A stretch of DNA of 64,000 bases from Synechocystis sp. LKSZ1 (GTDB taxonomy: Bacteria > Cyanobacteriota > Cyanobacteriia > Cyanobacteriales > Microcystaceae): assembly GCF_040436315.1 (NCBI RefSeq), contig NZ_AP031572.1, positions 1,364,001 to 1,428,000 on the forward strand, written 5' to 3'. The position numbers and the translations under genes were made by a program. Shown piece after piece: positions 29,166 to 48,116 of the stretch. Under the pieces are notes generated by a model. That model did no database searches. It had not been told where the DNA came from and worked only from the letters and a program-made list of their open reading frames with translations. Numbering within the stretch: position 1 is the stretch's first letter; each line of letters starts with the position of its first letter.

Positions 29166-30359
29166 TCAACGTCCAACCTTAACACCGCAGGATTGCTCCA
29201 ACGATGCTAGAGGGTCAAACTCCTGAAGCGTAGATTCGGCCGCGCCCCGACCTATTTGTTCTAATCCTCGTCGCAGGATATTCCTGGCTGCATTCACGTC
29301 ACGGTCTTCAACGTAACCGCAGTTAGAGCAGACATGAGTTCTAATACTCAAGGACTTCTTAACTGTAGCGCCACATTGCGAACAGTTCTGGCTGGTGTAA
29401 TGCGGAGGTACCGCAACTGTTACCTTGCCGTACTTCCTACCAAAGTAATCCAACCATTGACAGAATGTTGTCCATCCTGCGTCACTAATCGACTTGGCTA
29501 GATGCCGATTACGTACCATGTTCTTTACATTTAAGTCTTCGTAGGCGACCAAATCGTTAGATTGGATTACGCAGTATGCAACACGCTTGCAATACTCTTT
29601 ACGCTGCCTACTTACTTTTAAGTGTTTCCGAGCATATCGTTCTCTAGCCCTGTGATAGTTACGAGACTGGGGTTTTGCACCTTTGCGGTACTTCTTGGAT
29701 TTTTGACGGTTAGCTCGGTTGAGTTGATGCTCCGCCTTACGGTAGAACTTCGGGGACTCCACTGTCTCACCATCACTGGTAGCAATGAAGTAGTTTAGTC
29801 CCAGGTCTATCCCCACCGTTTTGTGGGTCGGTTCAGACGGTACTTCAACCTTAACGGATATACAGAACTGACAGTAATAGCCATCTGCCCGTTTGACTAA
29901 TCGCACCCGTTTAATTTGTGCCGGGTCGTAAAAGGCTAAATCCCAGGTGCCCACCAGCTTGAGCACACCGATGTTGTTCCCATCAGTGAACTCAATGTGT
30001 TTAGGGTCATGAAGCTTCCAGCCCGAGGTTTTATACTCCACTGAGCGGCAGTGCTTCTTGAATTTAGGAAATCCTTTCTTGCCTTTGACCTGCTTTTTAC
30101 AGTTGTCGTAGAAGCGAGCAATGGCAGACCAGGCTCGTTCAGCGGCAGCCTGTCTAGCCATGGAGTTCAGAGCCTTGGCGAAGGGAAATTCCTGGGCCAA
30201 CTCAGCGCAATATTTGTTGAGGTCGTAACGCCCTACCCCACGATTATCCATCCAGTAGCGTAGTGCTTTGTTGCGGACAAACTGGGCGGTGCGAATAGCC
30301 TCATCTATGCGCTGGTATTGAAGGTCTTTTCCTTTAAGTTTGAACTTAAGAACTATCAT
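29166..30359 (-). CDS. tnpB: TnpB RNA-guided nuclease (IS200/IS605 or IS1341 type)
   Basis: TnpB is the omega-RNA-guided DNA endonuclease ancestral to Cas12. From ATG 30359 the protein has 397 residues and all catalytic positions are intact: D185 in GIDLGLNYF, E274 in VAYEDLNVKNM, and D354 in EDRDVNAARN. The zinc-finger Cys pairs are C326/C329 (CSQC) and C344/C347 (CSNC). The basic N-terminal helix-turn part and the KGKKGFPKFK motif are typical. No tnpA is in the window, so mobility would need a transposase supplied in trans. Confidence 0.95.
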   Translation of the reverse strand: MIVLKFKLKGKDLQYQRIDEAIRTAQFVRNKALRYWMDNRGVGRYDLNKYCAELAQEFPFAKALNSMARQAAAERAWSAIARFYDNCKKQVKGKKGFPKFKKHCRSVEYKTSGWKLHDPKHIEFTDGNNIGVLKLVGTWDLAFYDPAQIKRVRLVKRADGYYCQFCISVKVEVPSEPTHKTVGIDLGLNYFIATSDGETVESPKFYRKAEHQLNRANRQKSKKYRKGAKPQSRNYHRARERYARKHLKVSRQRKEYCKRVAYCVIQSNDLVAYEDLNVKNMVRNRHLAKSISDAGWTTFCQWLDYFGRKYGKVTVAVPPHYTSQNCSQCGATVKKSLSIRTHVCSNCGYVEDRDVNAARNILRRGLEQIGRGAAESTLQEFDPLASLEQSCGVKVGR

Positions 30360-30454
30360 AGCTTCGACCCTGTGCCACAACTTTATGTTAATTTAGTCAA
30401 CATAAAACTGCAAGTAGTCGAGTAAGGAATATCAAGGAAGTAAGGCGCATTGTC

Positions 30455-34449: not shown

Positions 34450-35625
34450 CAGAAATGTTGAATGGTTTCTTTGAACTATCAAGGAATAGACACAACGATT
34501 CTGTAAAAGCCCACATTCAACAACCTACCACTAACTCTCTCAGCCAGTGTACATAACTTATTTTTTCACACATAAATGCCTGTAAATACCTTAGTTTATC
34601 TAATAATGATTCCCCAAACTCTTTCGGAATTCTTACCAATCTCAACATCCCATACCCAATCAGGCAACAATAAATCTGAATCTCTATTCCATTTGTATTC
34701 TTAGTGATTAGCCTGTCCAATTTTAGGTGCATTTTTAAAAACTTCCATAATAGTTCTATTTGCCAGCGCAATCGATAGAATTCAGCGATTTCTTCATTGC
34801 TTACTCCTCCCTCTCCCTCTTCTGGTAAATTTGTCACTAACCTGAACTCTGTCCTTTCTTCTCTATCGCTAAACACTACTCCTCTTCCTTCTACCTTTTT
34901 TTCCCCAGTTCCTATTTCATATTTTCCATTGTCCAGCATTTTTAAGCTTATATTATTCTTTATTCTCAACAAAAAATAACGCTCTTTCTTTTCTTGCAGT
35001 TTAGCTATTCTTTCTAGACTACAAAATCCTCTATCCATTATCCCAACTCCATTCTCTGGCGTTGCTTCTATCGTTTCATTTCCATATTTACTATCATGCC
35101 CTTGACCAAAATTAATCACTATTCCCCCTGGGACTCCTGTTTCTAAATCAATTCCACTAAATAGTTTTACCTGATGATGTCCTTGTCGCCATAACAACTT
35201 GCTGGTTAACGATATCACTGTTGAGTCCAGCGGAAACAAAACTAGTCCCCTTGTTTTCTTTTTTTGAGAAACTTCTACTTCTTGTTTTAGCTTTTCCCAT
35301 ATTTCTTTAAAAATCTTTAGGTTTCTCTTTTTACTTGCTTTTGAGAAGGTCGATATATCTACTGACTCTCCTCTCGCGTTTAGTCTCTTGAATTGACTTC
35401 TCATGCTTGTTTGGCTTTGGTCTAGTACGAAACTTAGCCAAATTGAGACAAACTTAAAGGTGTCCAGTTCTGGATAATCATTTTTGGACAAGTGACCCAG
35501 ATACTTTTTCACAACTTGAGGAAAGTTTGATATAATCATCTTTAGTTATTTTAGATTTTATGCCCCTATTCTACAAGATTAGGGGTTTTATTTTTTTGAT
35601 TTTCTTCTAACATTCAACACTTCTG
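34450..35625 (-). mobile_element. Complete IS4-family insertion sequence, 1176 bp
   Basis: Terminal inverted repeats are CAGAAATGTTGAATG (34450-34464) and, read inward from the right end at 35625, CAGAAGTGTTGAATG: 14 of 15 bases match. One intact transposase gene fills the element, and an identical 9-bp direct repeat flanks it. The element is probably active or recently so. It splits the acyltransferase-3 gene from the hexapeptide acyltransferase gene without cutting either frame, but could reduce transcription of the last two genes of the run. Confidence 0.93.
34517..35539 (-). CDS. IS4-family DDE transposase
   Basis: The 340-residue transposase keeps the full DDE set of the IS4 family: first Asp in LFPLDSTVISL, second Asp in GIMDRGFCS, and the Glu in the YREK signature (YRLRWQIELLWKFLK, with Tyr, Arg, Glu and Lys at the expected spacing). 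The length and uninterrupted frame indicate a functional enzyme. It acts on the 15-bp terminal repeats of its own element. Confidence 0.95.
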   Translation of the reverse strand: MIISNFPQVVKKYLGHLSKNDYPELDTFKFVSIWLSFVLDQSQTSMRSQFKRLNARGESVDISTFSKASKKRNLKIFKEIWEKLKQEVEVSQKKKTRGLVLFPLDSTVISLTSKLLWRQGHHQVKLFSGIDLETGVPGGIVINFGQGHDSKYGNETIEATPENGVGIMDRGFCSLERIAKLQEKKERYFLLRIKNNISLKMLDNGKYEIGTGEKKVEGRGVVFSDREERTEFRLVTNLPEEGEGGVSNEEIAEFYRLRWQIELLWKFLKMHLKLDRLITKNTNGIEIQIYCCLIGYGMLRLVRIPKEFGESLLDKLRYLQAFMCEKISYVHWLRELVVGC

Positions 35626-37997: not shown

Positions 37998-39077
37998 TTA
38001 TAACTCATCATACTCTATTCCCAAAGATTCTTTTAGTATTTCTTTTAGTTCGTCTGAGTTTCTTTTAAGATTAATAGCATCACAACTCTTGTAAGGATTT
38101 GAGCGGCTGTAGTCATTAATAATAATACGCTTACTATGAAGCAAGCCCATGATTAAATGGTCAAAAGGCATATCAAGTTTTTGCATCTGTTTTATTGTCA
38201 GAGATCTATATTTTTCTGGACGGGAAGTAGTCAAAATTATTTTAAATTTACCGCTTTGATAAAGCGTTCTTAGAATATTTATATTGGCATCTATGGCAGG
38301 AGTATTACCAATGTAAGGGGGAAAGTGGGATGATGAGTTTTCAACGAGTGTACCGTCAATATCAACAAATAAAGTTGCATAGGTTCTTTTAAATCTATCC
38401 CAGTCTTCTAATGTTCCCCAATCCCGATACTCAGTAACTTCTTCTCCAACAAATAAACTACCATCAAGAATTAGTTGAAAAATTATATTGCTGATATATC
38501 TTTCTGCATTGAAATTAATGGCATCAACTGCTTCTACAAAAACCTGAGCAGAGTCAAATCCATAACCACCAACGCAAAAATGAGGACTAATAACCTGCTT
38601 TTCTACAATATTGGAAATAGAGCCGTTAGAGTCGATGATAATATAGGATTTATTTTTGGGCTTGATTAAACCACAAGAATTTAGATTGGCAAAACAAACA
38701 AAATTTCCGCCTCGATATTGAGCTTTAAAGAAATTATCAGAGTCCTTAATAAAAATTGGCCCTGTGATATGTGCTTGTTTAATAGCGGTATAAACTGTTT
38801 CTGGCTGGTCTTTAGTTTCCTTATTCAAAAAAATAAGTTGACTTTTATTAGACAAACCAAGATCTTCTAATTCTTCTTGAAATCCCTTGAGAAATTGATA
38901 CCGTTCCTGATGTTCTGATAAACAAACGAAATAAATATTGCTAAAGTCGTCCAAATCTAACCCTCTGATAGCTTCTATGGCCATAAATTTCCCAGAGGGA
39001 TGGGTCAGCATCCATTTTGGTCTGAGATTAGGAAATCGACTAGATTTTCCTGCCATGGGCATAATTAAATTAGTCAT
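37998..39077 (-). CDS. Nucleotidyltransferase-HAD phosphatase fusion
   Basis: Residues about 1-230 form a sugar/small-molecule nucleotidyltransferase: IMPMAGKSSRFPNLRPKWML contains the phosphate-binding loop variant and the Lys, and IKDSDNF carries the metal-binding Asp. Residues about 235-359 are a HAD domain with DIDGT at 239-243 (nucleophile D239) and ILTTSRPEK as motif II. Such fusions occur in capsule gene sets for phospho-substituents. Its start overlaps the preceding kinase-like gene by 8 bases, so the two are likely translationally coupled. Substrate unknown. Confidence 0.8.
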   Translation of the reverse strand: MTNLIMPMAGKSSRFPNLRPKWMLTHPSGKFMAIEAIRGLDLDDFSNIYFVCLSEHQERYQFLKGFQEELEDLGLSNKSQLIFLNKETKDQPETVYTAIKQAHITGPIFIKDSDNFFKAQYRGGNFVCFANLNSCGLIKPKNKSYIIIDSNGSISNIVEKQVISPHFCVGGYGFDSAQVFVEAVDAINFNAERYISNIIFQLILDGSLFVGEEVTEYRDWGTLEDWDRFKRTYATLFVDIDGTLVENSSSHFPPYIGNTPAIDANINILRTLYQSGKFKIILTTSRPEKYRSLTIKQMQKLDMPFDHLIMGLLHSKRIIINDYSRSNPYKSCDAINLKRNSDELKEILKESLGIEYDEL

Positions 39078-39963
39078 AGGAATTCAATAGAATTTTAATA
39101 TGTTTTTTTACAAAATTTATTTCATTGACCTTAGTCACATAGGGCATAATTCTTACCAAATTAAACAATTCCAAGTATTTATACCAAGTATACATTTCAT
39201 ATTCCCATTTGAGAAGATATTGTTCTAAATATCTATCAATATAAGATAATATTTGCATCGTTTTACAGGAATTATAATTTTCCAAATCAGCGTCAACTAT
39301 GATTGACCAAAAGAACTTTGTATCTTGTCTTAGTTTGACTAAATCAATAATAGGGGATTCAACAAAAGAGTCAAGGAAATCTATTAAATAGATTTTATTA
39401 TTACAAAATAACATATTGGAAAAAGTTAAATCCCCATGACAATAACCTTGATAAAATTTTGCTTTTGAAATTCTCTTTTCTAAAAAGGAAAAAACGTTTT
39501 GTTTAAATTCTTTATTAAAATTTTCGTTGGAGCATAAAATTGTTTTTAAATCATTTATTTTTCTATAAATTATTCTTATGGGAGGGTTGGTTGGCTGTGC
39601 TGATTCAAATAGACAGTCTAAGTAATTTATTATATGCTTGACGATTTGTTGAATTTGCTTAACACTAATTCGACATAAAAAGCTGCTAAATTTTTCTGCC
39701 GCAATATATTCCATGTCAAAATAGTTTAATTCTTCGTGAGTAATTCCTTGAGAAAATATTTTTGGGGAGTCAAAAAAGACTAAAGAATTAAGTTGTTTAA
39801 ATTCATTTTGTTTTCTTGCCTGTTTGACTAAGCGAGCGTTATAGCTAAAAGAAGAAGAAACTTTTCTGACTAAAAATTTTTCTCGATCTTGAATAATCGT
39901 TATGTTACATCCTGAGCGTCCTTCAATTTTAAGAAAAGGAGTATTGCTTCTCAAATTTTTCAT
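39070..39963 (-). CDS. Aminoglycoside/choline-kinase-fold phosphotransferase
   Basis: The 297-residue protein has the APH/choline-kinase catalytic loop CHGDLTFSN (H176, D178, N183) and the metal-binding IDFLDSF (D195, with D198 close by). An N-terminal lobe Lys in FLVRKVSSSF would contact ATP. It probably phosphorylates a small alcohol or sugar. Because its stop overlaps the start of the nucleotidyltransferase-HAD gene, a kinase followed by nucleotidyl activation, as in LicA/LicC phosphocholine routes, is a reasonable but unproven model. Confidence 0.75.
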   Translation of the reverse strand: MKNLRSNTPFLKIEGRSGCNITIIQDREKFLVRKVSSSFSYNARLVKQARKQNEFKQLNSLVFFDSPKIFSQGITHEELNYFDMEYIAAEKFSSFLCRISVKQIQQIVKHIINYLDCLFESAQPTNPPIRIIYRKINDLKTILCSNENFNKEFKQNVFSFLEKRISKAKFYQGYCHGDLTFSNMLFCNNKIYLIDFLDSFVESPIIDLVKLRQDTKFFWSIIVDADLENYNSCKTMQILSYIDRYLEQYLLKWEYEMYTWYKYLELFNLVRIMPYVTKVNEINFVKKHIKILLNSYD

Positions 39964-42302: not shown

Positions 42303-42893
42303 TTAACCATATCTTTGGCTTGTAAGATGGCAAAAAAGGCGCAATACATATTTTAAGAAAAACACAAGAGCCTTTTTGCTTTTGGTATCTGTAACTAAAG
42401 AACCTGCTTCTATAATCTTAGAATTCACAATAGTTGTATTGGGAAATAACTGAGCTATTTCAGATGGAATTGGTCTGTAATATGTGTCAATGGGATCAGC
42501 ATGATAAGGATAACTAAGAGGTACAGAAATAAATAAGTATCCACAAGAGGAAATAAGTTTTAGACAAGTTTCGGCAAGAGTTTTCCGGTCTGCTATATGC
42601 TCCAGAACATTAGTCAATAAAATAGATCGAGGATTTTTTGGGCTTATTATTTGCTGAACCGACTCAGAAAAAATATCACCATATATATCTACTCCTTCAC
42701 CTTGTTTTAAATCAGAATGAATAAATTTATAACCGTTGTTTTCTAATGGGTGAAAAAAACTGTTCCTGTATATGAGGTTTTTTTCTTCTCGAAACTTTTT
42801 AGTAGATGATCCAATGTTGAGAATGGGATTAACATTTGTAGTCTCAATTTTATTCAATATTTCCCGAAGGTAAATGGCTTCTTGTTGTCTCAT
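42303..42893 (-). CDS. Class I SAM-dependent methyltransferase-like protein
   Basis: The 196-residue protein has a motif I-like loop (NPILNIGSSTKKF, about residues 22-34), an acidic strand end (SDLKQGEGVDIYGDIF), and motif IV/post-IV elements SILLTNVLEHIADRKTLAETCLKLISSCGYLFISVPLSYPYHADP, quoted in pieces. These fit a small-molecule or sugar methyltransferase of the methyltransferase-11 type. It overlaps the preceding sialyltransferase-like gene by 44 bases, which implies coupled expression. Substrate unknown. Confidence 0.75.
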   Translation of the reverse strand: MRQQEAIYLREILNKIETTNVNPILNIGSSTKKFREEKNLIYRNSFFHPLENNGYKFIHSDLKQGEGVDIYGDIFSESVQQIISPKNPRSILLTNVLEHIADRKTLAETCLKLISSCGYLFISVPLSYPYHADPIDTYYRPIPSEIAQLFPNTTIVNSKIIEAGSLVTDTKSKKALVFFLKYVLRLFCHLTSQRYG

Positions 42894-43782
42894 GTTCTAT
42901 GTTTGCAAAATAGTAAGGTAAATTTGGATATAAAGCTGATTTTGTTGAACCTATATACAATTTTATATCATTAGGCTTTAAAAGATAATTATTAAGACTA
43001 AGAATAACTTTATTGATTGTTATTTGTCCATAAGTCTCAGAAATAGTTTTATGAACTGATTCAGACTGAATTTTTTTGGGGATAGGAATATTCTTGTTTT
43101 TATAGTCGTCATTTTCATAAAAATAGTTTATATTATTAAGATCTACCCCACAGAAAACTATATTTTTATATCCGGCTTTTAATGAAAAAGAGAGAGCTTG
43201 ACTTAAAGAAGCTCTCTTAAATAAGAAGATATTTTGAAGTTCTAAAATTTTGAATTTTTTAATCAATTTAATGGATTTGTGAAGGCTGGATTCTAGTCTA
43301 CCCGGTATCACTAACTCATATCCACTATAAAAATTAAGACGCAATTCTTCGGTTATAGGGTTTAAGTCTAAATTTGGGTTTTCAATATTTTTTATAATAA
43401 AGGGAACATGAGAGTATTGATGTTTTTTGAGTTGAAGAAGTTTGATCAAAGTTTCATAACGTTCTTTGTCCTCCCCAGACTCAAACATATAATATGTTGG
43501 TACATGAGAATGTATTAACCAGAAGTTAATTCCAAAAGAATCATGTTTTTTTATCATTTCCCATTGATCTTTATTTAATTCATTAATGGAACTACCGCTA
43601 CCAAGAATAAAAATAGTATCACTTTTTTTGTATTTACTTATATTCAATGCCTTTAAGGGATTTGTTTTTTTTTTCAATCTGTTTTCTTGCCAAGCCAAAT
43701 ATTTAGGCATTTCGGATAACATCTTCAAAATAAAGAAGATGATAAAAAATTTTTCTTCAATAAATAACTTTATTTGTTTCAT
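42850..43782 (-). CDS. Sialyltransferase-like (GT42/DUF115-type) protein
   Basis: From ATG 43782 the protein has 310 residues. After an N-terminal hydrophobic/basic segment it shows IFILGSGSSINELNKDQWEMI, then GINFWLIHSHVPTYYMFES, SLSQALSFSLKAGYKNIVFCGVDL and a late SVHKTISETYG. The order resembles bacterial GT42 sialyltransferases (Gly-rich N-terminal loop; ALGYKEIYLSGIDF-like strand; a late His segment) and DUF115/Maf proteins. Placed near neuB and neuA, it is the best candidate for the nonulosonate transferase. Assignment rests on motif order only. Confidence 0.5.
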   Translation of the reverse strand: MKQIKLFIEEKFFIIFFILKMLSEMPKYLAWQENRLKKKTNPLKALNISKYKKSDTIFILGSGSSINELNKDQWEMIKKHDSFGINFWLIHSHVPTYYMFESGEDKERYETLIKLLQLKKHQYSHVPFIIKNIENPNLDLNPITEELRLNFYSGYELVIPGRLESSLHKSIKLIKKFKILELQNIFLFKRASLSQALSFSLKAGYKNIVFCGVDLNNINYFYENDDYKNKNIPIPKKIQSESVHKTISETYGQITINKVILSLNNYLLKPNDIKLYIGSTKSALYPNLPYYFANIEHETTRSHLPSGNIE

Positions 43783-43842
43783 TATTCTTAGCAAGAGTCG
43801 AAGTAATTTATTTTTTTAATAGTGTTTATATACAACTTTACG

Positions 43843-45103: not shown

Positions 45104-47350
45104 TTAGAGTAAAGCCTCTAATTTTTCAAAAGCAATCCAAAAACCCTCACCGTCATTTTTATGCCCTTGCCATATTTCGGGTATAAAGGAGGCATTTGGG
45201 GCAGTTTTATCTAAGTCTTCGACAAAAGCTGGAAAATCGATTTCTCCCTCGCCGATTTGTAATCCTTCTCCATCTAATCCTTCTGAATCAGCGATGTGTA
45301 AATGAGCTACAAAGGGACTTACTTGCTCAATAAACTGCTTGAATGACCAGTTATGATGATTACAGGCTAATTTAGAATGGGATATGTCTAAACAGACTCG
45401 ATAACTATGTTGAGAGCAAAATTGCGCAGTATCTTGGGGATCAACAAAAAGATTATGGTACCTCTGTCCGCCAAAGTGCCAAGGGAAAGGTGGCATGGTT
45501 TGAGGAATGATTTCAACTCCTTGTGTATCTAACTGAGAAAGGCTATCAATGAGTAATTCATAAAGTTTTGCTCTTTCCGTAAGACTTAGAGGAGCATCAA
45601 GGGTAAAACCACCAACGTTAGTAACAATACAAGGACGATCGCACCTTTTAAAATAGGGTTTTAACTTTCTGGTAATGTCAATAACCCTTTGCATTTCTTC
45701 GATCGACCTTTGACGATAACTTTCATCTTCAGAACAGAGATTGAGTAAATGATCCCCGGCGAATAATTCAGGGGTGTGAACCACTAAATCCAGATCGTAA
45801 GGATGAGCAAAAAACTGCTTAATATCTTGCTCTAAGTCTTTATAACTAAGATGAAATTCTAGTAAATCGGGATTAGTTTTACTTAAAAGATTTTTAAAGT
45901 CATGATAACGAACTGGTAAGCCCCAAGGACGCTTAAATTTGTAATTTCTTGGTTGTACTTGTACTTGTTCTAAATCACTAGAATACAAGAAATCTCCTGC
46001 TTTTAAGTCTCTTTTGGCAGGTTTACCGATGAGTTCTTTTTTTCGATTGGGTTGTAATCCCTTACCCGGACTTTTTACTTCAAGCATTGATTCAGTAATG
46101 ATGTCTCCTGATTTGAGATCGCAGTTGATAACTAAACTTTTTGCCAAAGTTTCCCTATTCATTAATTCTCCTTGACTGATTTTCCGTTCTCCTACTTCTC
46201 CTAAAGATTGTTCTACTTGACGGATACCTTCTACCATCAAACGAAACTCATCAGGCAGTAAACTGACTTTATGATCATTCCCCTCCATGGTTTTGTCGAG
46301 GGTAAAATGTTTCTCGATTACCTTTGCTCCTTTAGCAACAGCAGCGATCGCCACGTTAATACCTCTTTCGTGGCCAGAGTAACCGATAGGACAATCACCA
46401 ATTTCCTTGAGTCGATTGAGATAGTTGAGGTTAACATCTTTAAAGGGAGCTGGATACGTCGAATTACAGTGCAGTAAAACGTACATTGAACCTAATTCTT
46501 TAAGTAGTTTAACTGATTCGCTAATTTCTTGTTCTGTAGCCATCCCCGTTGAGCAAATTAGGGGTTTTCCCGTTTTTGCCAAGGCTTTTAATAAGTCGTG
46601 ATTAGTTAAGTCAGCGGAAGCAACTTTATAAGCCTTCATGCCATAATTTTCTAACAGAGCTAAACTTTCTAAATCCCAAGGAGTACAAAGAGGCAAAATC
46701 CCCTTAGATTGACAGTAATCAAAAGCAGTGAATAATTCTTCAGGGGTTAATTGAAAACGAGATAGTAAATCTAATGTATATTGTGAACCTAAATCTTCGC
46801 TAGCATCATTGGCATTACCGGCATTTCGATAAAGAGATTTGAGATCTCTCATTTGAAATTTAACACAGTCAGCCCCAGAGGCAATCGCCTCACCAATTAA
46901 TTTTTTGGCTAATGCTAAACTGCCGTTATGATTATTACCGATTTCCGCAATGATAAAGGTCGGAAATTTTTCATTAATCGTAAAGTCACCAATGCGAATG
47001 TCATCAGACTTGAGATGGGCGATCGCTACTAGATGACGATTCTTATCTAACAGGGGAATAAACTCTGTTTCGTTAGAAATAACTGACTGAATCTTATAAG
47101 TATCTTCTGTGTAATCGAAATATTTATAATTTTTATTAGTAATTTTGGATACAGGTTGATTCAGATCAATGGTATTTTGAGTGACTAGCCAACGGCGAAA
47201 ATCACCATCTGTTAGAACTCCTTCCAATACCCCCGCCTCAGTAACAGAAAAAATAATACGACTCTTATTGTCGCTTATCTTCTTTAAAGCATTGATGATG
47301 TCATCTTCAGCGAAGACAATATATTTAGATAGATTTTTATCAATAATCAT
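45104..47350 (-). CDS. CBS-NeuB-SAF-TIM barrel fusion: nonulosonic acid synthase
   Basis: From ATG 47350 the chain has 748 residues. Domains (numbered from TTG 47389, i.e. +13): paired CBS-type regulatory domain about 14-128, NeuB condensing barrel 137-395 (IIAEIGNNHNGSLALAKKLI, KFQMRD, CSTGMATEQEI, GYSGHERG, EKHFTLDK), SAF domain about 413-473, and an AP-endonuclease-2/xylose-isomerase-like barrel 485-761 with VVHTPE, CLDISHSK, HLHIADSEG and PEIWQGH metal ligands. NeuB joins PEP to an N-acyl hexose to make a sialic-type acid. The extra barrel may supply an epimerisation step. NeuA follows as partner. Confidence 0.88.
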   Translation of the reverse strand: MIIDKNLSKYIVFAEDDIINALKKISDNKSRIIFSVTEAGVLEGVLTDGDFRRWLVTQNTIDLNQPVSKITNKNYKYFDYTEDTYKIQSVISNETEFIPLLDKNRHLVAIAHLKSDDIRIGDFTINEKFPTFIIAEIGNNHNGSLALAKKLIGEAIASGADCVKFQMRDLKSLYRNAGNANDASEDLGSQYTLDLLSRFQLTPEELFTAFDYCQSKGILPLCTPWDLESLALLENYGMKAYKVASADLTNHDLLKALAKTGKPLICSTGMATEQEISESVKLLKELGSMYVLLHCNSTYPAPFKDVNLNYLNRLKEIGDCPIGYSGHERGINVAIAAVAKGAKVIEKHFTLDKTMEGNDHKVSLLPDEFRLMVEGIRQVEQSLGEVGERKISQGELMNRETLAKSLVINCDLKSGDIITESMLEVKSPGKGLQPNRKKELIGKPAKRDLKAGDFLYSSDLEQVQVQPRNYKFKRPWGLPVRYHDFKNLLSKTNPDLLEFHLSYKDLEQDIKQFFAHPYDLDLVVHTPELFAGDHLLNLCSEDESYRQRSIEEMQRVIDITRKLKPYFKRCDRPCIVTNVGGFTLDAPLSLTERAKLYELLIDSLSQLDTQGVEIIPQTMPPFPWHFGGQRYHNLFVDPQDTAQFCSQHSYRVCLDISHSKLACNHHNWSFKQFIEQVSPFVAHLHIADSEGLDGEGLQIGEGEIDFPAFVEDLDKTAPNASFIPEIWQGHKNDGEGFWIAFEKLEALL

Positions 47351-47423
47351 TTTAACTGACTTGGTTGAATTTTCTAACAGTGTAACCAAAATTTAAATGA
47401 ATGGGGATTTTCGTGGAAGTAGC

Positions 47424-48116
47424 TTAGTGAATTTGTGACATTGTTTTATTCATTAAAAATTCTATATATTCAAAATCTTGTAATGAGTCTATTTCGTGAC
47501 TCTGTGTTTTTTCCATCACAAATAAGGAAATTTTGCCCCCCAAACGATTATGGAATTCTTTCAATACCCAAGGCTTGAAAATATATATAGATCCATTTTC
47601 CATATATTGAGGATTCAACTCCTGTCGTCGTTGGCGGTGACGATAATCATAATTAATGGATTGAGCTTCCCCGTCTACTTTATGCCAGATAAAACGATGG
47701 GTCGGGGAAACAGATAATAGGGAGTCGGCATTTTCTTGCCTTAGTTGAGTAATGGCGCGATCAATATCTTCACCAGTACGCAAAGGAGAGGTGCATTGTA
47801 AAAAAACTATTAACTCTGGTTCAATGCCCATTTTTTCTATTTCTATAAGGGCATGAAGTAAAGCTGATTCTGAAGAAGCTGTATCACTAGCAAATTCAGC
47901 CGGACGTTGGATAATTTCCGCCCCATAGCCTTCTGACACGGAAGCAATTTTATCATCATCGGTGGAGACGAAGGTGAGATCGACTTCTTTAGCTTCTAGT
48001 GAATCCAGGATAGAATGAGCAATGAGAGGTTTATCAGACAAAAAACGAATATTTTTTTGCAGAATACCTTTTGAACCACCGCGGGCGGGGATGATTGTTA
48101 TAACTGAATTGGACAT
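47424..48116 (-). CDS. neuA: CMP-nonulosonate (acylneuraminate) cytidylyltransferase
   Basis: NeuA activates a sialic-type acid as its CMP-sugar for transfer. The 230-residue protein has the family motifs: IIPARGGSKGILQKN with the nucleotide-binding Arg and Lys, VSTDDDKIASVSEGYGA, QRPAEFASDTASSESALLHAL, and FLQCTSPLRTGEDID. The late ENGSIYIFK segment is also typical. It lies 73 bases upstream of the NeuB fusion on the same strand. Whether the substrate is Neu5Ac, legionaminic, pseudaminic or another acid cannot be told from sequence. Confidence 0.92.
   Translation of the reverse strand: MSNSVITIIPARGGSKGILQKNIRFLSDKPLIAHSILDSLEAKEVDLTFVSTDDDKIASVSEGYGAEIIQRPAEFASDTASSESALLHALIEIEKMGIEPELIVFLQCTSPLRTGEDIDRAITQLRQENADSLLSVSPTHRFIWHKVDGEAQSINYDYRHRQRRQELNPQYMENGSIYIFKPWVLKEFHNRLGGKISLFVMEKTQSHEIDSLQDFEYIEFLMNKTMSQIH

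Follow-up and report, generated by a model that had tools for sequence, protein, structure and literature searches.

A recurrent fusion of a NeuB-type synthase with a CBS pair and a xylose-isomerase-like barrel, and its possible role in nonulosonate synthesis

Why should a nonulosonate synthase carry a pair of CBS repeats at one end and a second barrel, with the look of a metal-dependent sugar enzyme, at the other? The question is raised by a gene on the minus strand of a 64,000-nucleotide stretch of the Synechocystis sp. LKSZ1 genome (contig NZ_AP031572.1, positions 1,364,001 to 1,428,000; hereafter the window), which joins a CBS pair, a NeuB barrel, a SAF domain and a TIM barrel of the xylose-isomerase type in a single chain. 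This kind of fusion has been known since 2012 and is, as far as we have seen, uncharacterised; the window protein is a further member. Our answer, offered tentatively and with somewhat less than even confidence, is that the protein is a bifunctional and probably feedback-regulated nonulosonate synthase, in which the barrel would prepare the hexose, the product would be of the Kdn (2-keto-3-deoxynononic acid) type, cytidine monophosphate (CMP) would activate it, and the CBS pair would act as a brake.

The reading frame is open from 45104 to 47389 on the minus strand, where a TTG would start a chain of 761 amino acids (residue numbers below refer to this frame). An ATG with its first base at 47350 is the more probable start, since the majority of the aligned homologues begin at it or close by, and 45104-47350 is the likely extent of the gene:

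45104..47350, minus strand: CBS-NeuB-SAF-barrel fusion gene, 748 amino acids from the ATG
47012..47350, minus strand: CBS pair, residues 14-126, placed by the profile match to solved CBS pairs
46190..47002, minus strand: NeuB barrel, residues ~130-400, keeping the eight listed active-site residues of Neisseria meningitidis NeuB
45962..46150, minus strand: SAF domain, residues ~414-476, with Ser440 replacing the conserved Arg314 of N. meningitidis NeuB
45107..45934, minus strand: xylose-isomerase-like TIM barrel, residues ~486-761

This order of parts had been read by the first-pass annotation of the window. It is borne out by domain profiles and by an AlphaFold2 model of the whole chain (mean predicted local distance difference test, pLDDT, 91.3; predicted template modelling score, pTM, 0.75), and the four motifs quoted at the time (VVHTPE, CLDISHSK, HLHIADSEG and PEIWQGH) are all in the translation. 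Pfam places NeuB at residues 164-398 (E 1.9e-87; 293.2 bits against a cut-off of 22.1), SAF at 418-474 (E 4.6e-10; 40.4 bits, cut-off 21) and AP_endonuc_2 at 512-743 (E 2e-23; 83.8 bits, cut-off 31.1). It finds one CBS repeat, at 18.5 bits, below the cut-off of 24. When 31 homologues are combined into a profile, both repeats are covered, and solved CBS pairs are matched (3kh5 with E 8.2e-13, 4o9k with E 1.4e-11), so the pair is indeed present. The best single-stretch match of this profile is 4o9k, an arabinose 5-phosphate isomerase, and includes the motif GV(F/L)TDGDLRR.

A chain of this kind could also arise from a sequencing error that joins two genes, an objection that the first-pass annotation had itself raised while calling for a search of the same domain order elsewhere. 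That search settles the matter. We fetched 102 loci, the window included, which come down to 97 once five duplicates with an identical C-terminal stretch are taken out. Since the full architecture runs uninterrupted through 95 of the 102 (90/97 after duplicates), the fusion is not an artefact and a sequencing error is ruled out. Three of the remaining loci are cut by contig ends (L061, L121, L123), two are without the CBS part (L047, L118) and two are interrupted by stops or frame changes (L077, L098).

The fusion is old and widespread. A pattern-based scan with one genome per species found 174 relatives. The best 80 of these 174, which were kept, come from cyanobacteria, Bacillota, Proteobacteria, Chloroflexi, Desulfobulbaceae, Bacteroidia, Flavobacteriales, Acidimicrobiales, Epsilonproteobacteria, Lentisphaerae, Nitrospirales and others, going by record labels that include some metagenome bins and one label that looks wrong. 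One pair of loci, labelled Actinomycetota (L093) and Sphingomonas corticis (L097), has an identical C-terminal fusion stretch, and a mis-binned metagenome contig is likely there. Among 291 genomes sampled from Cyanobacteriota the barrel occurs in 21, always in a frame of 617-892 amino acids; three further members of the window's genus are listed there, and none of them has it. Four strong barrel matches, all in fused-length frames, and one weak match (29 bits) in a frame of 265 amino acids came from a second group, of 299 genomes; this weak match aside, stand-alone barrels of the same subfamily were absent from the matches in both groups. Among plasmids 102 records match, one of which, a plasmid of Ensifer canadensis, covers most of the query, at 56.5% identity. 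A single scan of viral contigs with the barrel returned no relative, and a phage collection gave no match. Two of the four strong matches in the second group are without a Pfam CBS match and consist of NeuB, SAF and barrel only. The CBS-less fusions (L134, L135, L118, L047) keep Ser440 and Gln630, two residues to which we return below, so core and CBS part can be separated: in the material examined, the link between NeuB and the barrel is constant and the CBS pair optional.

What does the synthase part make? Eight active-site residues that passages of PMC6795526 list for N. meningitidis NeuB (E25, Q55, T110, K129, Y186, S213, H215 and E234) have identical equivalents in 62/62 homologues. The equivalent of F112 is Trp in 59/62 fused proteins, and that of N184 is Ser in 61/62, a residue also seen at this position in 10 of 13 other NeuB rows; for N74 and F288 the alignment gave no confident equivalent. 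The telling change lies in the SAF domain. According to the same passages (PMC6795526), Arg314 places the N-acetyl group of N-acetylmannosamine (ManNAc) and is the sole SAF residue of that active site. This position is Ser in 61/62 aligned fused proteins and, in a wider set of 100, Ser in 98, Cys in one and a gap in one. In the 13 other NeuB-like rows, 12 of which come from the fusion loci and one of which (L121) is a cut fusion, it is Arg in nine and Lys, Glu, Ser and a gap in one each. The N-acyl hexose put forward as substrate by the first-pass annotation is thereby argued against. From the exchange of Arg for Ser we infer that the sugar condensed is probably one without the usual 2-N-acetyl group, and the product a Kdn-type acid rather than N-acetylneuraminic acid. 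The fusion also scores below the cut-offs of both NCBIfam equivalogs compared, NeuB_NnaB (336.2 bits, cut-off 399.65) and PseI (255.6 bits, cut-off 340.25).

The surroundings of the gene bear on the same question. Genes for the usual substrates are scarce near the fusion (Epimerase_2 in 4/97 loci, PseB-like in 8/97, DegT in 8/97), where any of the three occurs in 14/97 loci, a count in which the window itself figures because the query for PseB-like genes picks up general sugar epimerases as well. The corresponding number for ordinary NeuB loci is 16/20 (Fisher p 2e-8), these controls being from one group only, hand-picked for short frames and room around, with longer flanks (~16 kb, where the fusion loci average 13.4 kb) and with one member, L209, that gave no NeuB match to the query used. 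The companion most often seen is the one next to the fusion in the window:

47424..48116, minus strand: CMP-nonulosonate synthetase-type cytidylyltransferase (Pfam CTP_transf_3, E 2e-24)

This protein reaches 121 bits against PseF, below the cut-off of 205.7. A CMP-sugar synthetase like it lies within 8 kb of the fusion in 67/97 loci, and adjacent to it (same strand, less than 400 bp) in 49/97; in 16 of the 30 loci without one, a flank is shorter than 5 kb. In the host genome the 47424-48116 gene is the single CTP_transf_3 match, and PF03102 matches twice, in the fusion and in a weak partial hit at 35.9 bits. With one full NeuB and one CTP_transf_3 match, the fusion and the cytidylyltransferase therefore form a pair that stands alone in the genome. 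That no separate NeuC-type epimerase is in the window, as had been observed at first pass, holds for the whole genome: NeuC is found in neither, and the two Epimerase_2 matches are the non-hydrolysing WecB and LpxB. Elsewhere, Epimerase_2 has no match in 4 of 18 other fusion genomes. One of these four, the complete Desulfopila genome (G299), has neither an Epimerase_2 nor a GlcNAc_2-epim match (NanE not having been searched for); its fusion locus also has a second, ordinary NeuB-like frame. Type I mannose-6-phosphate isomerase (PF01238) has no match in the host, by a search that in a control matched only 2 of 14 genomes.

The C-terminal barrel is the part that most needs explaining. Modelled alone, it reaches a pLDDT of 95.4. 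Its nearest solved fold is 3wqo, the D-tagatose 3-epimerase-like MJ1311 (Z 24.4, root mean square deviation 2.6, 241 aligned residues), which is also its nearest solved sequence, and the L-ketose 3-epimerase of Thermotoga maritima follows at Z 23.7, rows within one Z unit of each other counting as tied. A profile alignment of the barrel to 20 sugar isomerases has an hhalign probability of 98.1% (L182 and L189, both wrong-frame translations, were left out, and the Gln-Glu pairing is the same with 22). The alignment to nine endonuclease IV sequences, a smaller and less diverse template set, has 19%, and part of the domain falls in a gap there. A narrower isomerase set gave no confident alignment for placing the barrel's Glu. 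Ten polar residues (E511, H513, H538, Q630, D668, H671, H698, E708, E738 and H743) are invariant in 100/100 sequences, and D701 is kept in 99/100. Over 62 aligned homologues, mean pairwise identity is 0.645 for NeuB, 0.585 for the barrel, 0.524 for SAF and 0.427 for CBS, with 45 invariant positions of 276 in the barrel and 43 of 267 in NeuB; the barrel is about as conserved as NeuB and therefore under selection.

We take the metal ligands of ketose 3-epimerases to be Glu, Asp, His and Glu, with both Glu catalytic, and the first Glu to be metal ligand and acid/base at once. In the barrel Asp668 aligns to a metal ligand position, His698 falls on another (pairing with a His of MJ1311 and a Gln of the isomerase row shown), and Glu738 is on the last strand, where the second catalytic Glu is expected, a placement made by strand order since it lies outside the aligned part. 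Three of the four positions thus seem to keep their residues. The first Glu is replaced by Gln630, so the two-glutamate site is incomplete. The expectation of the first-pass annotation is therefore only partly confirmed: metal-type ligands are conserved and the predicted fold is of the isomerase type, whereas the fourth metal position, that of the catalytic Glu, is Gln throughout. To us the barrel looks like a working enzyme with a chemistry other than that of the textbook 3-epimerases.

Put together, the reading that we favour runs as follows. The barrel would be a catalytically active, metal-dependent member of the xylose-isomerase superfamily that works on sugars; most likely it isomerises or epimerises a common hexose, or a hexose phosphate, and so readies the sugar that is to be condensed. 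The NeuB and SAF part would condense this six-carbon sugar with phosphoenolpyruvate (PEP), as its family and conserved active site suggest. The neighbouring cytidylyltransferase would activate the acid with CMP, a step suggested by family and synteny, and the CBS pair may sense a nucleotide, perhaps the CMP-nonulosonate itself, as an end-product brake. The product would presumably go to a surface glycan, given the glycosyltransferase, methyltransferase and ATP-binding cassette (ABC) transporter genes around.

Several observations weigh against this bifunctional synthase. Gln630, present in 100/100 sequences, aligns to a column that is Glu in 19/20 isomerases, and with the catalytic Glu so replaced the known 3-epimerase mechanism cannot run. 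An endonuclease IV structure, 5zhz, is nearly as close in fold as the epimerases (Z 22.6). The exchange of Arg for Ser is alone no proof of a changed substrate. The frequency of the CMP-synthetase does not differ significantly between fusion loci and ordinary NeuB loci (67/97 versus 10/20, p 0.12). Finally, the host has an N-acylglucosamine 2-epimerase (672 bits, NCBIfam equivalog cut-off 600), and ManNAc may well be available in it through this enzyme and WecB, which weakens our reading and raises a rival in which ManNAc feeds the synthase. It also qualifies the 'self-contained' entry into the pathway proposed at first pass: the genome is indeed without NeuC, but the 2-epimerase could supply ManNAc.

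That rival is best taken with a broader one, in which the barrel comes into play once condensation is done, or has no catalytic role and serves to shape the oligomer, the NeuB part being possibly fed with ManNAc by the 2-epimerase. We consider this somewhat unlikely. The invariant Gln where a catalytic Glu is expected would fit it, as would the position of the barrel, C-terminal to NeuB, and the presence of the 2-epimerase in the host. Ten polar residues invariant in all sequences are nonetheless hard to expect of a mere scaffold, though a role after condensation could accommodate them, and a supply of ManNAc agrees poorly with the loss of the Arg that positions its N-acetyl group. Nor is the GlcNAc 2-epimerase a constant partner: it matches in 17/37 other fusion genomes, 13 of them at E <1e-40, and can be ruled out as an obligate one.

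The chief rival, in that it fits most of the same facts, makes the barrel a phosphatase: NeuB would join PEP with mannose 6-phosphate or ManNAc 6-phosphate, and the barrel would remove the 9-phosphate. It would account for the lost N-acetyl-binding Arg and for the missing upstream amino-sugar genes, and the closeness of the fold to endonuclease IV speaks for it too. The site of endonuclease IV has nine ligands for three zinc ions. In the weak alignment to that family, the strand region that bears one of its metal His residues falls in the gap and the metal Glu is not Glu, and the profiles favour the sugar isomerases strongly, if with the unequal template sets noted above. A phosphatase was proposed in 2012, in a passage on a Leptospira NeuB with an endonuclease-like C-terminal domain (PMC3438082), and the formation of Kdn 9-phosphate from mannose 6-phosphate followed by a phosphatase is described as an established route in passages of PMC6200933. 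On balance we regard the phosphatase as unlikely.

Least probable, and in our view very doubtful, is the first-pass proposal that the barrel is a 2-epimerase making ManNAc or another N-acyl hexose in place of NeuC, which would suit the absence of NeuC from window and genome, the rarity of Epimerase_2 near the fusion and the Desulfopila genome without either epimerase match, but which runs against the Ser in 98/100, against the N-acylglucosamine 2-epimerase that the host already has, and against the chemistry, since the hydride or enediol route of the xylose-isomerase type needs a 2-hydroxy sugar and a 2-acetamido sugar is unsuited to it.

Our bifunctional reading can be pushed further, to a two-gene, NeuC-free route to CMP-nonulosonates spread across bacterial phyla. 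The barrel would convert a common ketose or aldose (fructose into mannose, for instance, either as the free sugar or as the phosphate) by a new kind of isomerase chemistry with Gln for Glu, the fused NeuB would make from it a Kdn-type acid that lacks an N-acyl group, and the CMP product would throttle the enzyme through the CBS pair. We hold this complete version to be distinctly unlikely.

Among known systems, N. meningitidis NeuB (1xuu, Z 38.8) and Campylobacter jejuni PseI (8h2c, Z 34.6) have the NeuB-SAF fold in common with the fusion; they are without CBS repeats or a second barrel, and the SAF position Arg314 is Ser in the fusion. MJ1311 (3wqo) and the T. maritima L-ketose 3-epimerase are separate enzymes, and the position of the catalytic Glu is an invariant Gln in the fusion. 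The arabinose 5-phosphate isomerase 4o9k, of the KdsD/KpsF type, has a CBS pair like that of the fusion; we take this pair to follow a SIS isomerase domain, to bind CMP-3-deoxy-D-manno-octulosonate (CMP-Kdo) and to belong to a CMP-ulosonate pathway. In Prymnesium parvum, a Kdn 9-phosphate synthetase route makes a nonulosonate from mannose 6-phosphate without amino-sugar steps and with separate enzymes, and the passages describing it do not mention a fused barrel (PMC6200933). Oral fusobacteria also join NeuB to pathway enzymes, as NeuB/NeuA and NeuB/NeuD, with other partners and, in the passages concerned, without barrel or CBS (PMC4045943). Closest is a protein of Leptospira interrogans (YP_002104/NP_711794), likened here by the paper's description only: it is likewise a NeuB-type synthase with an endonuclease-related C-terminal domain, guessed in 2012 to be a phosphatase, in a nonulosonate cluster, but unlike most of our fusion loci it lies beside a full legionaminic acid pathway (PMC3438082). 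The word CBS is nowhere in the main text of PMC3438082, and the passages on this protein mention neither a CBS part nor the SAF Ser, the barrel Gln or missing upstream genes. In the open-access literature searched this was the only paper found for this kind of fusion; PMC7371886 mentions no fusion, CBS or barrel, and nothing was found on CBS with CMP-Kdo or PtmE, nor on any of the four features just named, although papers on them may exist.

Other genes near the fusion hint at the fate of the acid. In the window these are two glycosyltransferases, an ABC transporter, an NAD-dependent epimerase, methyltransferases and the following gene, a weak assignment made through relatives:

42850..43794, minus strand: candidate nonulosonate transferase, distantly MptE/Maf-like

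No family matches the protein itself; a relative in L028, at 48% identity, has an MptE-like match below the threshold. In L031, L034, L035, L062, L065 and L066 the fusion is, going by coordinates, followed directly by a clearer MptE-like (Maf-type) gene, whose match passes the Pfam cut-off in L034, L062 and L065 and stays under it in L031; these genes are candidates for the transferases of the acid made. Further recurring neighbours are short-chain dehydrogenases/reductases (SDR, 17/97), Gfo/Idh/MocA oxidoreductases (6/97) and genes of the dihydrodipicolinate synthase family (DHDPS, 6/97), as at L127:4002-4787, L074:9837-10832 and L038:4487-5446; they could represent later steps or a rival aldolase chemistry. 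In L040-L046, probably marine picocyanobacteria, the fusion occurs with up to three tandem DUF6716 putative glycosyltransferases (one member was scanned) and, by eye, with sulfotransferase-like and KpsC-like/KpsS-like genes, which suggests a sulfated nonulosonate capsule. A different NeuB fusion is found at L212:1516-3900, where an N-terminal half that by eye resembles FAD/NAD-binding oxidoreductases precedes NeuB-SAF in 795 amino acids.

Within the window, GC content falls from ~0.52 to 0.28-0.44 across 24000-52000, a region that also holds two transposon genes:

34517-35539: DDE transposase
29166-30380: IS605 OrfB/TnpB-type protein

With these two and its glycan genes, 24000-52000 looks like an acquired surface-glycan island. 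At 37998-39963, an APH-type kinase neighbours a protein that by eye resembles a nucleotidyltransferase and ends in a HAD-like part, the latter from weak matches only; together they might activate a sugar or an alcohol for this glycan.

In the fused family, nonulosonate synthesis has a branch that recurs among bacteria and is apparently uncharacterised. Three features, the loss of the SAF Arg, the scarce upstream genes and the invariant site of the barrel, lead to a testable prediction, that many bacteria, probably including the marine picocyanobacteria of L040-L046, make a surface nonulosonate of a structure that has not been predicted. If this is true, pathway predictions keyed on NeuC, LegG or PseG would overlook these producers.

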